Assembly: GCA_003133745.1 (NCBI GenBank)
Contig: PKZD01000018.1
Location: 1 to 40,723 of the forward strand
Reading direction: 5' to 3'
DNA from: Candidatus Tyrphobacter aquilonaris
Lineage (GTDB): Bacteria; Vulcanimicrobiota; Vulcanimicrobiia; Vulcanimicrobiales; Vulcanimicrobiaceae
DNA: 40,723 bases
The position numbers and the translations under genes were made by a program. Positions 17,071-22,682 of the stretch are shown piece by piece (position 1 is the stretch's first letter; the number at the start of each line of letters is the position of its first letter). Below the pieces are notes generated by a model. That model was not told the origin of the DNA, ran no database searches, and saw only the letters and a list, made by a program, of their open reading frames with translations.

Positions 17071-18408
17071 ATGAGCCGTACGACGCCGCGCATCGTCATC
17101 CTCGGCGGCGGTTTCGCCGGGATCGCCGTCGCCTCACGCCTGGAGCGCAGACTGCGTCCGGACGAAGCGGAGTTGACGTTGATCGGGCGCGAGAACTTCA
17201 GCGTCTTCACGCCGATGCTGCCCGAGGTGTGCTCGGGTGCGCTCGACGTGCGGCACGTCGTCACGCCGATCCGCTCGCAGCTGCATCGCACGAGCTTCGT
17301 GCTCGCCGACGTCGACGCGCTCGATATTCGCGGTCGCAGCGTCACGTACACGCACACGCTGACCGGAATCGCGGAAACGCTCGCGTACGATCACATCGTG
17401 CTCGCATTGGGCTCGGCGACTTCGACCTTCGGCCTTCCCGGCGTCGCGGAGCGCGCGTTTGCGCTCAAGACCCTCGAAGATGCCGCAATCTTGCGCAATC
17501 GTCTGGTCTGGCTGCTCGAGCTCGCCGATTCCACCGATGATCCGGCTGCGGTGCGGCGCCTGCTCACGATCGTCGTCGTGGGCGGCGGCTTCACCGGCGT
17601 CGAGGCCGCGGGAGAGATCGTCGACCTGTTCAAGAGCGTGTTGCGCTTTTATCCGCACATCCCGCGTGGGGGCGTGCGCGTCGTACTGCTCGAGGGCGGG
17701 AGCGCTCTGCTTCCCGGACTTCCACCACGGATGGGCGAGTATTCCGCGCGAGCGCTCGCGATGCGCGGCGTCGAGGTCATGACGGGTGACGGCGTCGCAC
17801 GTGCCGACGACGCAGGTTTGGTGCTGCAGAGCGGCACGCACATCGAGACGTCGACGATCGTCTGGAGCGCCGGCGTCAAGCCTTCGCCGATCGTCGCGAC
17901 GACGCCGTTGCCGCAAACCAAACGCGGGGCGGTGATCGTCGGCGAGGACCTGCGGGTTGCGGAGTTTCCGAGCGTGTGGGCGGCGGGCGACTGCGCGGCG
18001 ATCCCCGACGGTGCGGGTGGTTTCTATCCGCCCACCGCGCAGCACGCGATTCGCGAAGGGCCGGCGCTCGCCGACAATATCGTCGCCGTCTTGCGCGCGA
18101 CGCAGACGAAGCCGTTCCGCTTCACGGCCTTAGGGATGATGGCGTCGCTCGGTGCCCGCAAAGCCGTGGCGCAACTGCCCGGCAATCGCGTCCTCACGGG
18201 ATTCCTCGCATGGTTCCTCTGGCGGACGTATTACTTGCTTCGTCTCCCCGGGTTGGACCGCAAACTGCGCGTCGCGTTTGACTGGACGCTCGAAATGCTC
18301 TTTCCCCGCGACGTTGCGGAGTTACGCGTGTACAGCCGGCGAGCGAGTTCGAGCGCGGCCGCGGATGCGGGGCTCGCACCGCGCGACGAACCCGTCGTTC
18401 ACCTCTAG
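17071..18408 (+). CDS. Type II NADH dehydrogenase-like NAD(P)/FAD-dependent oxidoreductase
   Basis: IVILGGGFAGIAVA; TIVVVGGGFTGVEAAGEI; VWAAGDCAAIPDGAGGFYPPTAQHAIREG. Confidence 0.9.
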   Translation: MSRTTPRIVILGGGFAGIAVASRLERRLRPDEAELTLIGRENFSVFTPMLPEVCSGALDVRHVVTPIRSQLHRTSFVLADVDALDIRGRSVTYTHTLTGIAETLAYDHIVLALGSATSTFGLPGVAERAFALKTLEDAAILRNRLVWLLELADSTDDPAAVRRLLTIVVVGGGFTGVEAAGEIVDLFKSVLRFYPHIPRGGVRVVLLEGGSALLPGLPPRMGEYSARALAMRGVEVMTGDGVARADDAGLVLQSGTHIETSTIVWSAGVKPSPIVATTPLPQTKRGAVIVGEDLRVAEFPSVWAAGDCAAIPDGAGGFYPPTAQHAIREGPALADNIVAVLRATQTKPFRFTALGMMASLGARKAVAQLPGNRVLTGFLAWFLWRTYYLLRLPGLDRKLRVAFDWTLEMLFPRDVAELRVYSRRASSSAAADAGLAPRDEPVVHL

Positions 18409-19232
18409 CTCGCGAGGGCGCCCATGCGCCACGTCGCGGCGAAGGCTTTGAAGACGACGGCATAGTCGTCGTGCGTGAAGCGCACGCTGCGACCGCCGGT
18501 GCGCTCAAAGCCGGGAATCGTCGCGACGAGGTCGGCTTGACCCGCGGAGACAAGTTGTACGTCAAGTGAGATCGGCGGCTCGAAGCGGTACGGCTTCGCA
18601 TCCTGCGCGCGAGCGATCGCATCGCGCGCAGCATCGCGAATGAGTCGCTGCGCCGCCGGCGGCGAGATCGAATCGGCGGCGAAGGAGCCGATCGACTCCT
18701 TCACGATCGCACCGCGAACCCACGGCATCTGCGCCTGCACGCCTTCTACGGTCGTGCGATCTCCCGTGACGAGCAGCAGCGGAACGCCGTAATGCCCCAG
18801 TAGCCCCGCGTTGATCGTCGCCTCGCTGCATGGAACGCCGTTGAGGCGCGCTTCGTAGATCACCGACGGCGTATACGTATGGCAGAGGACTGCGTTCGCG
18901 TCGCCGGCCCCGCCGTGATAGCCGACGAAGAACGCGCCGTCGAAGCCGCGATCTGCGTCCTGCACCATCGAGTAGGGCTTTCGATTGCCGAAGATAACGC
19001 GAATGTCGGAGGGCAGTTCGTCGAGGAGGAGGTTGCGCATCGGGCCGTGGGAATCGTTGACGAGCACGTCGCCGGCACCCGCCTCGCGCGCGCCCTCAAT
19101 CGCCGCGCGCACCTCCTGCGTGTAGGAGCGGCGAAAGATGGCGTACTCCGGATGCGGCGCGCGCGCGTCGACCTGCTGCCACGCGGTGATGCCGGCGACG
19201 CCCTCCATATCGCTCGAGACGTAGAGCCTCAT
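18405..19232 (-). CDS. M55 family D-aminopeptidase (DppA-like), copy 1
   Basis: MRLYVSSDMEGVAGITAWQQV; VLVNDSHGPMRNLL; FFVGYHGGAGD. Confidence 0.9.
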   Translation of the reverse strand: MRLYVSSDMEGVAGITAWQQVDARAPHPEYAIFRRSYTQEVRAAIEGAREAGAGDVLVNDSHGPMRNLLLDELPSDIRVIFGNRKPYSMVQDADRGFDGAFFVGYHGGAGDANAVLCHTYTPSVIYEARLNGVPCSEATINAGLLGHYGVPLLLVTGDRTTVEGVQAQMPWVRGAIVKESIGSFAADSISPPAAQRLIRDAARDAIARAQDAKPYRFEPPISLDVQLVSAGQADLVATIPGFERTGGRSVRFTHDDYAVVFKAFAATWRMGALAS

Positions 19233-20062
19233 GCGCGCACGTTCGCCGCGCCGCCGAGCCGCACGGCCGCGACAAAGGCACGGTATGCCGTCGCATAGTC
19301 GGGCGCGGTGAAACGCACGCTTCGACCGGCGATGCGCTCGAAGCCCGGCATCAGTTCGATGTAATCGCAGTTCTCGACGCGCACGGTTTCGAGCACGACT
19401 TCGACCGGAGAAGTGAAGGTGAAGGGCTTGGCGCGAGCGATGCTCGCGACCGCTTCGCGCGCGCCGGTGCGGATCGCGGCCTGCGCCGCGGAGGGCGTGA
19501 GTGAGTTCACGGCGTTGAAGCCGATCGCGTCCTTCACGGCGACGCCGGTGGCCCACGGAAGCGCGCGCAGCGTTTCGTCGACGATCCTGCGATCCCCGGT
19601 GATGAGCACGACCGGAACATCGTGCGCGCCGGCGAGCGCCGACACGAGCAGTGCCTCGCTGCACTCGGTCCCATTCACCGTGACGCGATGGACGGTTTCA
19701 TCGCTGAACGTATGCGCGAGCACGCCGTCGCCGTCGCCTCCCTTCGCATGGTAGCCGGTGAGAAAGACGGCGTCGACGCCGTCGTCGATTCGCTCCGCCA
19801 TCGAATGCGGTTTCGGCGCGCCGGAGACGACGCGCACGTCGTCGGGGAGTTCCTCCCAGAGCAGGTTTCGCATCGACCAGTGTGAGTCGTTGATCAAGAA
19901 CTCCGTCGCGCCGCCTTCGCGCGCACCCTCAATCGCCGCGCGCACCTCCTGCGTCATGTACCGCCGGTAGATCGGGTACTCGTCGCGATTCTCCGGATCG
20001 CACTGGTTCCACGAGCAGACGCCCGCGGTGCCCTCCATGTCGCAGGAAATGTAGATTCTCAT
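19229..20062 (-). CDS. M55 family D-aminopeptidase (DppA-like), copy 2
   Basis: MRIYISCDMEGTAGVCSWNQC; FLINDSHWSMRNLL; LTGYHAKGGDGDG; tandem paralogue of the adjacent gene. Confidence 0.9.
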   Translation of the reverse strand: MRIYISCDMEGTAGVCSWNQCDPENRDEYPIYRRYMTQEVRAAIEGAREGGATEFLINDSHWSMRNLLWEELPDDVRVVSGAPKPHSMAERIDDGVDAVFLTGYHAKGGDGDGVLAHTFSDETVHRVTVNGTECSEALLVSALAGAHDVPVVLITGDRRIVDETLRALPWATGVAVKDAIGFNAVNSLTPSAAQAAIRTGAREAVASIARAKPFTFTSPVEVVLETVRVENCDYIELMPGFERIAGRSVRFTAPDYATAYRAFVAAVRLGGAANVRA

Positions 20063-21122: not shown

Positions 21123-22523
21123 ATGACGAAGATGCGCTCTGAATCCGACTCGATGGGCACGATCGACGTCCCTGCGGAGAAGTATTACGGCGCGCAATCC
21201 GCGCGCTCGCTCATCCACTTTGACATCGGTGAAGGCAACTGGCCGCGCGACGTGATGCCGCGCGCCGTTATCCATGCGATGGCGACGTTGAAAAAAGCGG
21301 CTGCGCTCGTCAATCGCGATCTTGGGAAGCTCGATGCCGAGAAGGCGAAGTTGATCGTCGCGGCCGCGGACGAGATCGTCGAGGGAAAGCTCGACGCGCA
21401 TTTTCCGCTGCGCATCTGGCAGACGGGCTCCGGCACGCAGACGAACATGAACGTCAATGAGGTGATCTCGAATCGCGCGATCGAGCTCGCCGGCGGAGAG
21501 ATGGGCTCGAAGAAGCCGATCCATCCCAACGACGACGTGAACATGTCCCAATCGTCGAACGATACGTTCCCGACGGCCATGCACGTTGCCGCCGCGCAGG
21601 CGATCGTCGCGATGCTGCCCGCAGTGGAAGCGCTGCGCGACGCGCTCGCGGCGAAGGCCGATGCGTGGAAGAACATCGTGAAGGTCGGCCGCACGCATCT
21701 CCAGGATGCGACGCCGCTCACGCTCGGACAAGAGTTTTCCGGCTACGCGACGCAGCTCGACCGCGCGGTCGCGGCGTGCCGTAAGGCGCTCGATCCGCTC
21801 TACGACCTCGCGATCGGCGGCACCGCCGTCGGCACCGGCCTCAACGCGCACCCCGAGTTCGGCGAGCGCACTGCGAAAAAGATCGCGGAGTTGACCGGCT
21901 TGCCGTTCCGCTCGCACCCGAACAAATTTGCGGCGCTCGCCTCGCATGACGACTTCGTCTTTGCCTCCGGCGCGCTGAAGATGCTTGCGGCCGCGTTGAT
22001 GAAGATCGCCAACGACATTCGCTGGCTCGGCTCCGGACCGCGCGCCGGCATCGGCGAGTTGATCCTGCCGGAGAACGAACCCGGCAGCTCGATCATGCCC
22101 GGGAAGGTGAACCCGACGCAGTCGGAGGCGATGACGATGGTCTGCGTCCAGGTCTTCGGCAACGACCTCGCGGTGAGCTTCGGCGCGTCGCAAGGAAACT
22201 TCGAGCTCAATGTTTTCAACCCGGTGATGATCTCGAACTTCCTCCATTCGGCGACGCTGCTCCGCGGCGCGTGCATGATGTTCCGCGAGCACTGCATCGA
22301 AGGATTGCTGCCGAACGAAGAGGTCATCAAGCGCTACCTCGACGAGTCGTTGATGGTCGTCACCGCGCTCTCACCGCACATCGGCTACGACAAGGCGGCG
22401 CAGATCGCGAAGAAGGCACACCATGAGAAGACGACGCTGCGCGCCGCCGCGCTCGCACTCGGCGTCGGCGCGGAGCAGTACGACAAGGTTGTCGTACCCG
22501 CGGAGATGACGAAACCGAAGTAG
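21123..22523 (+). CDS. fumC: Class II fumarate hydratase
   Basis: [64 protein letters not shown]. Confidence 0.95.
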
Positions 22524-22532
22524 GGCGAAGTT

Positions 22533-22646
22533 GACGTGTAGCCTGAGACGCTAGCATGCCGCGGGTTCGATTCCCGCGCGCTCCACCGGCGCCTTGCGCG
22601 CCAGGGTCCTGAGTGATACGGTAGCGTCAGTCTCAGGCTACGTGTC
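22533..22646 (+). ncRNA. candidate structured RNA containing a tRNA/tmRNA-like T-arm + acceptor 3' strand enclosed in a long imperfect stem
   Basis: gacgtgtagcctgagac (22533-22549) pairs with gtctcaggctacgtgtc (22630-22646) with two G-U pairs; interior GCGGG-TTCGATT-CCCGC-GCGCTCC-ACC at 22561-22587; terminator follows. Confidence 0.5.
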
Positions 22647-22649
22647 ACG

Positions 22650-22682
22650 GAGGCCGCCCGACGGGGCGGCCTCTTCGTTTTC
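22650..22682 (+). terminator. Rho-independent-like terminator
   Basis: gaggccgcc-cgacgg-ggcggcctc hairpin followed by ttcgtttt. Confidence 0.8.

Follow-up and report, generated by a model that had tools for sequence, protein, structure and literature searches.

We describe a family of bacterial gene units in which an RNA resembling an alanine tRNA is followed, on the same strand, by a gene for an RNA complementary to its 5′ half. Read from their sequences, intact units very probably share one order: a weak promoter, a tRNA-like RNA of about 72 nt, a strong extended −10 promoter, an antisense RNA of about 60 nt and an intrinsic terminator. We propose that the alanine-type tRNA look-alike and its own antisense RNA probably operate together, as a toxin–antitoxin-like or inducible-mistranslation module. 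To our knowledge, such a bacterial gene unit has not been described before, and the family is absent from Rfam.

One copy lies around positions 22524–22682, with all its parts on the plus strand, of a 40,723-nucleotide stretch from Candidatus Tyrphobacter aquilonaris (GCA_003133745.1, contig PKZD01000018.1, positions 1–40,723 of the forward strand; the whole stretch is referred to as the window). It directly follows an open reading frame of 466 amino acids (21123–22523) that we, like a preliminary description of this DNA, take from its sequence to be fumC, the gene for class II fumarate hydratase; the end at 22523 given there is confirmed. The fumC stop codon overlaps the first nucleotides of a degenerate tRNA-like RNA (22522–22585) of 64 nt, compared with about 72 nt in intact copies, which our covariance model R1 matched with 47.8 bits (E = 8.6e-8) in a search of the host genome. 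The preliminary description had seen no matching 5′ half ahead of the T-arm. One is present: a degenerate acceptor strand, GGGCG (22523–22527), pairs with CGCTC (22579–22583) according to sequence, constrained folding and the family alignment, and it is followed by an intact 24-nt anticodon-like arm (CGTGTAGC-CTGAGAC-GCT-A-GCATG, 22535–22558), which folds in the layout of intact copies into 8 bp, including the one-nucleotide bulge of the family, closed by the 7-nt loop CTGAGAC (22543–22549). The T-arm (GCGGG-TTCGATT-CCCGC, 22561–22577; helix 4 of the family alignment, with 99.3% of cells paired) and the 3′ acceptor strand GCGCTCC (22578–22584), with discriminator A73 (22585) and CC next to it, lie where they had been reported. 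Pairs 1:72 and 7:66 are broken, G3:U70 (22524–22582) and A73 are retained, and AAGTTGA stands where intact copies have a D-arm of about 14 nt; that is, the D-arm is deleted. The upstream promoter is also missing, with the end of fumC in its place.

The downstream part of the window copy carries a predicted promoter, TTGCGC-17-TACGGT with a TG extension. Its −35 box, TTGCGC (22594–22599), lies in the loop region of a small hairpin already located by the preliminary description, and its extended −10 element, TG-A-TACGGT (22614–22622), has the TGnTAnnnT pattern common to the family. The segment GTCTCAGGCTACGTGTCA (22630–22647) is complementary to 22532–22549, covering the loop and 5′ strand of the anticodon-like arm, and the intrinsic terminator (22650–22681; a 10-bp GC hairpin at 22650–22673 followed by TTCGTTTT) was found by sequence and folding where it had been placed before. 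The 17-bp complementarity between 22533–22549 and 22630–22646, with two G–U pairs, is likewise present, but it had been read as an intramolecular helix of a permuted tmRNA. Because the downstream RNA, predicted to have its own promoter, is complementary to the 5′ half of the tRNA-like RNA, this stem is a sense–antisense relation and not a helix within one molecule.

Compared with shuffled sequences, folding gave z scores of −5.85 for 22524–22682 and −4.74 for 22533–22646, whereas the tRNA-like part by itself reached −0.36 in the window copy and −4.16 in an intact copy. Neither ARAGORN nor Rfam matched the window copy to anything. Since the D-arm, two pairs and the upstream promoter are lost and the tRNA-like part folds like shuffled sequence, the window copy appears to combine a decayed tRNA-like RNA with an antisense gene that has survived, the first half dead or crippled and the second apparently intact.

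A DNA search across genomes of the host's taxonomic family returned partial matches at other loci that on inspection were complete units. Model R1, built from 23 full-length members, gave matches at E ≤ 1e-4 in 48 of the 99 genomes of that family, a few of them ordinary tRNAs with no more than 38 bits; genuine copies almost all scored 43–94 bits. The covariance model thus yields about 80 copies in roughly half of these 99 genomes (Candidatus Eremiobacterota), counts that are not phylogenetically independent, as the copies share ancestry. The first seeds were picked by a T-arm/acceptor pattern, which biases the acceptor sequence of the seeds; later copies came from the model, and three loci that are ordinary tRNAs (L169, L170 and L171) were removed. 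Genomes carry one to five copies, in some cases in tandem (L024, L026, L029, L031 and L034), and the host has three: C69:70186–70257 (86.0 bits), C62:17940–18010 (82.3 bits) and the window copy, C17:22522–22585 (47.8 bits). Scanning 85,462 species genomes for an exact pattern returned 31 stretches, of which the records named by lineage all belong to Candidatus Eremiobacterota or WPS-2 and several others coincide with genomes of the host's family. A search of 149 genomes across the phylum added only two members, from another family of the same class, with divergent sequence and an unchanged layout.

Known phage and plasmid records showed no similar DNA. An intact copy was seen on the 64.5-kb viral contig IMGVR_UViG_3300047171_000080 (L130:5188–5259, minus strand), near a phage-type DNA polymerase exonuclease gene; its acceptor, GGGGGGC/GCCCTCC, has changed in a compensatory manner with G3:U70 kept. 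In one tandem-array copy (L028:2021–2111) foreign sequence stands in for the 5′ acceptor and the antisense fits a neighbouring copy type instead, so that tandem units have apparently recombined there.

Most copies have a convergent gene downstream, which marks the unit as a free-standing gene and rules out a leader or attenuator of that gene. Recurrent sites lie between genes that we take from their sequences to be sucC and an acyl-CoA dehydrogenase gene, and beside a presumed rlmN. The unit is therefore inherited at a few sites and duplicated, and is not a neighbouring gene's leader; its few conserved sites and vertical inheritance are less typical of selfish modules. The fumC site differs in that fumC orthologues in six same-genus genomes (86–89% identical) are followed by unrelated DNA in which the element was not found, pointing to a recent arrival here or a recent loss elsewhere.

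Upstream, intact copies show a weak promoter pattern, TTG around −37 and an A-rich element spanning −14 to −9; the GCT conserved at −3 to −1 suggests a start at −3. The tRNA-like RNA measures a near-constant 72 nt to the discriminator (70–73 nt among copies). It comprises an acceptor stem, GGGGCGN/NCGCTCC, a 4-bp D-stem with a UGGU(G)-type loop of only 3–5 nt, a 24-nt anticodon-like arm of about 8 bp (7–8) with one bulge and a 7-nt YYGNNAN loop, a 2-nt variable region and a canonical T-arm with TTCGATT. In an alignment of 81 distinct copies (A3), which was fitted to the model structure so that its figures lean towards that structure, 96.0% of cells were paired compared with 78.3% after shuffling, and double changes numbered 298 compared with 77.5, the D-, anticodon- and T-stems included; sliding the partners by one column destroyed the pairing, and a MAFFT seed alignment agrees. 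Covariation backs the acceptor, D-stem and T-stem. A small peptide starting at an ATG in the D-loop was rejected, as lengths of 70–73 nt leave no common reading frame and some copies lack the ATG; no toxic small protein encoded by the target RNA was found.

Because the T-arm and acceptor resemble the 3′ end of tmRNA and the upstream flank pairs with downstream sequence, the preliminary description had considered a tmRNA that is circularly permuted or made of two pieces, or an acceptor piece of tmRNA with a gene of its own. The host, however, carries a full-length tmRNA on the same contig as the window, about 31 kb further downstream (G000:C17:53699–54050), with a 3′ end (CGGGGGGCAGCACCCCGACAGCTCCACCA) and T-arm that differ from those of the element, and Rfam tmRNA models matched all 41 genomes searched, 38 of them above the family cut-off. 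In a whole-genome tmRNA search the window gave only an 18-nt, 18.9-bit sub-threshold match (22560–22577) and none at the gathering score. Intact relatives carry the 5′ half upstream in normal 5′-to-3′ order, with continuous arms within about 72 nt and no mRNA-like domain with a tag reading frame, and the promoter and antisense start some tens of nucleotides further on. The element shares with the tRNA-like domain of tmRNA (Rfam RF00023) the alanine identity pair and A73, a reduced D-arm, the T-arm and a longer stem at the anticodon-stem position; it differs in its lack of an mRNA-like domain or tag, in a D-stem that pairs and covaries, in a loop that closes the stem and in having a separate tmRNA in its host. 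The complete host tmRNA with its different 3′ end removes the permuted or two-piece reading, to which we give practically no weight, along with a copied tmRNA attachment end.

An attachment-site or tRNA/tmRNA 3′-end remnant of an integrative element would likewise explain the likeness to a tRNA 3′ end, and the restriction of the fumC-site copy to this genome among its six same-genus relatives would suit it. A complete canonical ssrA sharing this exact 3′ end would have pointed the same way: the gene exists, but the shared end does not, and a search of the host genome for any intact gene with the 3′ end seen here returned, as best matches, further copies of the element and short tRNA T-arms. 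With about 80 full covarying units conserved as wholes far larger than a 3′ fragment, and with housekeeping genes such as sucC and rlmN rather than integrases as recurring neighbours, we consider a remnant very unlikely. A new tRNA-mimic RNA, another option raised at the outset, was correct in essence.

As a separate observation, tmRNAs of the host's family (f1) and a second family of its order (f2) lack the canonical UUCNA in the T-loop (L214, the host's own tmRNA, and L050–L068), having GGCAGCA, GGCAGTA, GGCGGTT or TGGCAGT instead, and those of f3 (L039–L049) have a normal TTCAACT. ARAGORN reported no tmRNA in either f1 locus tested (L214 and L065).

The conserved features of the acceptor are those of an alanine tRNA. 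Of 81 distinct copies, 76 have G3:U70 and two more A3:U70, and G3:U70 stays constant while pairs 4:69, 5:68 and 6:67 change compensatorily; A73 is found in 75 of 77 copies. G3:U70 is the main determinant for alanyl-tRNA synthetase (AlaRS) and is enough for charging (PMC11415595), and host alanine tRNAs have the same GGGG/CUCC end with A73, likewise with no encoded CCA. In no copy of the tRNA-like RNA does CCA directly follow A73. We dropped this as grounds for excluding a tRNA: about half of the ordinary tRNAs in these genomes, including most listed alanine tRNAs, have no encoded CCA, so its absence means little. On this acceptor anatomy, AlaRS is on balance the favoured partner of the tRNA-like RNA.

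The loops are not those of an alanine tRNA. Among 77 seven-nucleotide loops, the anticodon position mostly reads GAU, GUC, GAC or GAG, the alanine anticodon GGC is absent, and position 33 is always a pyrimidine (U in 50, C in 27). ARAGORN called 7 of 24 tested loci, the window not among them, and the Rfam tRNA model 1 of 16. The clearest case is L172 (L172:4053–4124, plus strand, equivalent to G074:C2:148252–148323), a genuine cloverleaf (Rfam tRNA, 63 bits) that ARAGORN calls tRNA-Gly(GCC), with an alanine-type acceptor, GGGGCCG/CGGCTCC, A73 and G3:U70; the same genome contains a normal tRNA-Gly(GCC), GCGGAAG, as well. A complementary RNA, GGCGACACGGCAAACTTACGCTACG, also lies 3′ of L172. ARAGORN further calls L164 tRNA-Asp(GTC) and L166 tRNA-Leu(GAG), both of which keep G3:U70. 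These three loci support reading the common form as a tRNA-derived RNA of alanine identity with foreign anticodons.

The second half of the unit is equally regular. Between the tRNA-like RNA and the complementary segment, TGnTAnnnT occurs in 79 of 80 copies (3 expected in shuffled sequences), with TTG 17–18 nt before the −10 in 69 of the 79; after ordinary tRNAs in two genomes the same pattern occurred in 4 of 67 cases. The antisense is complementary mostly to nt 4–36 of the tRNA-like RNA, the whole 5′ half up to the anticodon. Its pairing score was 30.4 for own pairs, 19.2 for foreign pairs and 16.0 for ordinary tRNAs of two genomes, and duplex energies for 78 copies were −49.7 kcal/mol with the cognate RNA, −35.8 with non-cognate RNAs and −32.0 with shuffled RNA. 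Relatives thus conserve the pairing first noted in the window, through changes that compensate one another from copy to copy. Downstream of the antisense, 68 of 78 copies have a terminator-like hairpin, compared with 10 of 78 shuffles. These features amount to a cognate antisense RNA with its own predicted promoter and terminator, as is expected of a type I toxin–antitoxin locus. Promoter and antisense are kept in all 66 copies with an intact tRNA-like RNA, and the few cases of antisense loss occur only among damaged tRNA-like RNAs (none among intact ones), a contrast of 66 with 0 that fits a toxin–antitoxin pair, although the numbers are small and general decay could give the same pattern.

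Together, these features suggest how the unit may operate. The weak promoter would start at about nt −3 and yield a tRNA-like RNA of about 72 nt with an alanine identity set and a non-alanine loop; the second, consensus-like promoter downstream on the same strand would yield a short RNA able to pair through its 5′ part with nt 4–36. This antisense RNA would pair with the exposed loop first and then invade the 5′ half, so that the tRNA-like RNA could not fold, be charged or remain stable, and silencing of this kind is likely. Left unsilenced, the tRNA-like RNA would engage AlaRS and perhaps the ribosome, and translation would be disturbed; we advance such a toxic or misdecoding effect tentatively. 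In its most specific form, an RNA-only toxin–antitoxin or switchable mistranslation system, the toxin would be an alanine-accepting tRNA with Ile, Asp, Val, Leu or Phe anticodons and the antitoxin the adjacent 5′-half antisense diversifying with the anticodon arm, a proposal we regard as doubtful.

Several predicted features weigh against normal decoding, namely the anticodon-like stem of about 8 bp, the 3–5-nt D-loop and C33 in 27 of 77 loops. In most copies the leader also pairs with the trailer (−1:73, −2:74 and −3:75, with covariation at −2:74) to give a 10-bp helix, which would hinder RNase P. Because the long anticodon stem, C33 and leader–trailer pairing argue against efficient decoding, the main rival is an AlaRS-binding decoy or regulator, whose extended acceptor helix would make it a non-productive ligand of AlaRS (or of EF-Tu or RNase P): neither charged nor used by the ribosome, it would have its level tuned by the antisense. 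That the covarying leader–trailer helix ends at the predicted start site and that CCA never follows A73 would suit such a decoy, but the latter is a weak point given how many ordinary tRNAs share it, and the conserved 7-nt YYGNNA loop and the normal cloverleaf of L172 speak against it, so that we consider a decoy possible, if somewhat unlikely. The YUNR-like loop can be explained by the needs of antisense recognition alone.

The roles might also be reversed: the antisense would then do the regulating, acting on mRNAs or on ordinary tRNAs that share the anticodon loop, and the tRNA-like RNA would serve as its sponge. Its promoter looks the stronger one, it outlives a decayed tRNA-like half in the window and at L018, and some loops are identical to those of host tRNA-Val(GAC) and tRNA-Asp(GTC). 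However, from one copy to the next the antisense changes together with the tRNA-like RNA beside it, and a sponge would have no need of the strong constraint on the tRNA fold, G3:U70 and A73, which makes this arrangement improbable.

The proposed module of a tRNA look-alike and its silencer recalls several known systems. Some type I toxin–antitoxin loci, such as those of the zor–Orz, shoB–OhsC and dinQ–agr type, typically have a neighbouring antisense RNA that does not overlap its target. Such loci resemble our units in being small and tandemly duplicated, in having an adjacent short RNA with complementarity of about 18 nt or longer and a strong antitoxin promoter, and in losing the antisense only with a damaged partner; the putative toxin here is a tRNA-like RNA with no conserved frame, in contrast to the membrane peptide mRNA there. 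The toxin CreT, which does not adopt a tRNA-like fold, works by sequestering tRNAs. In CreTA, an RNA-only toxin acting on tRNA or translation is paired with an RNA antitoxin, as proposed here, with the difference that CreA acts through CRISPR Cascade at a promoter (PMC8501985, PMC9458426). Naturally mistranslating bacterial tRNAs are known in tRNA-ProX of Streptomyces and Kitasatospora (reviewed in PMC11415595), which similarly joins the acceptor identity of one amino acid to the anticodons of others, has a non-U33 loop and exists alongside a normal tRNA set. The identity is proline there and alanine here (G3:U70, A73), the arms are non-standard here, and an antisense RNA after each gene is not described there. 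No partner synthetase gene was seen here. The bacterial Y RNA YrlA, a short non-coding RNA that also has a tRNA-like module with D- and T-loops, was ruled out, because its Ro60/TROVE partner (PF05731) is absent from all 31 genomes searched.

We know of no description of a tRNA or tRNA mimic that is controlled by antisense from a neighbouring gene dedicated to it, and the literature within reach, most subscription journals being outside it, yielded no report of a tRNA-like gene accompanied by an antisense gene of its own. Should the tRNA-like RNA prove to be alanylated and to decode, the family would represent programmed mistranslation or a toxin made from a tRNA; otherwise its members would form a new class of regulatory RNA directed at AlaRS. 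In both cases the family is sizeable, and the phylum to which it belongs has been little studied.

Elsewhere in the window, positions 18405–20062 on the minus strand encode a pair of neighbouring paralogous proteins, whose starts include MRIYISCDMEGTAG and MRLYVSSDMEGVAG and which we presume from their resemblance to be DppA-type D-aminopeptidases.
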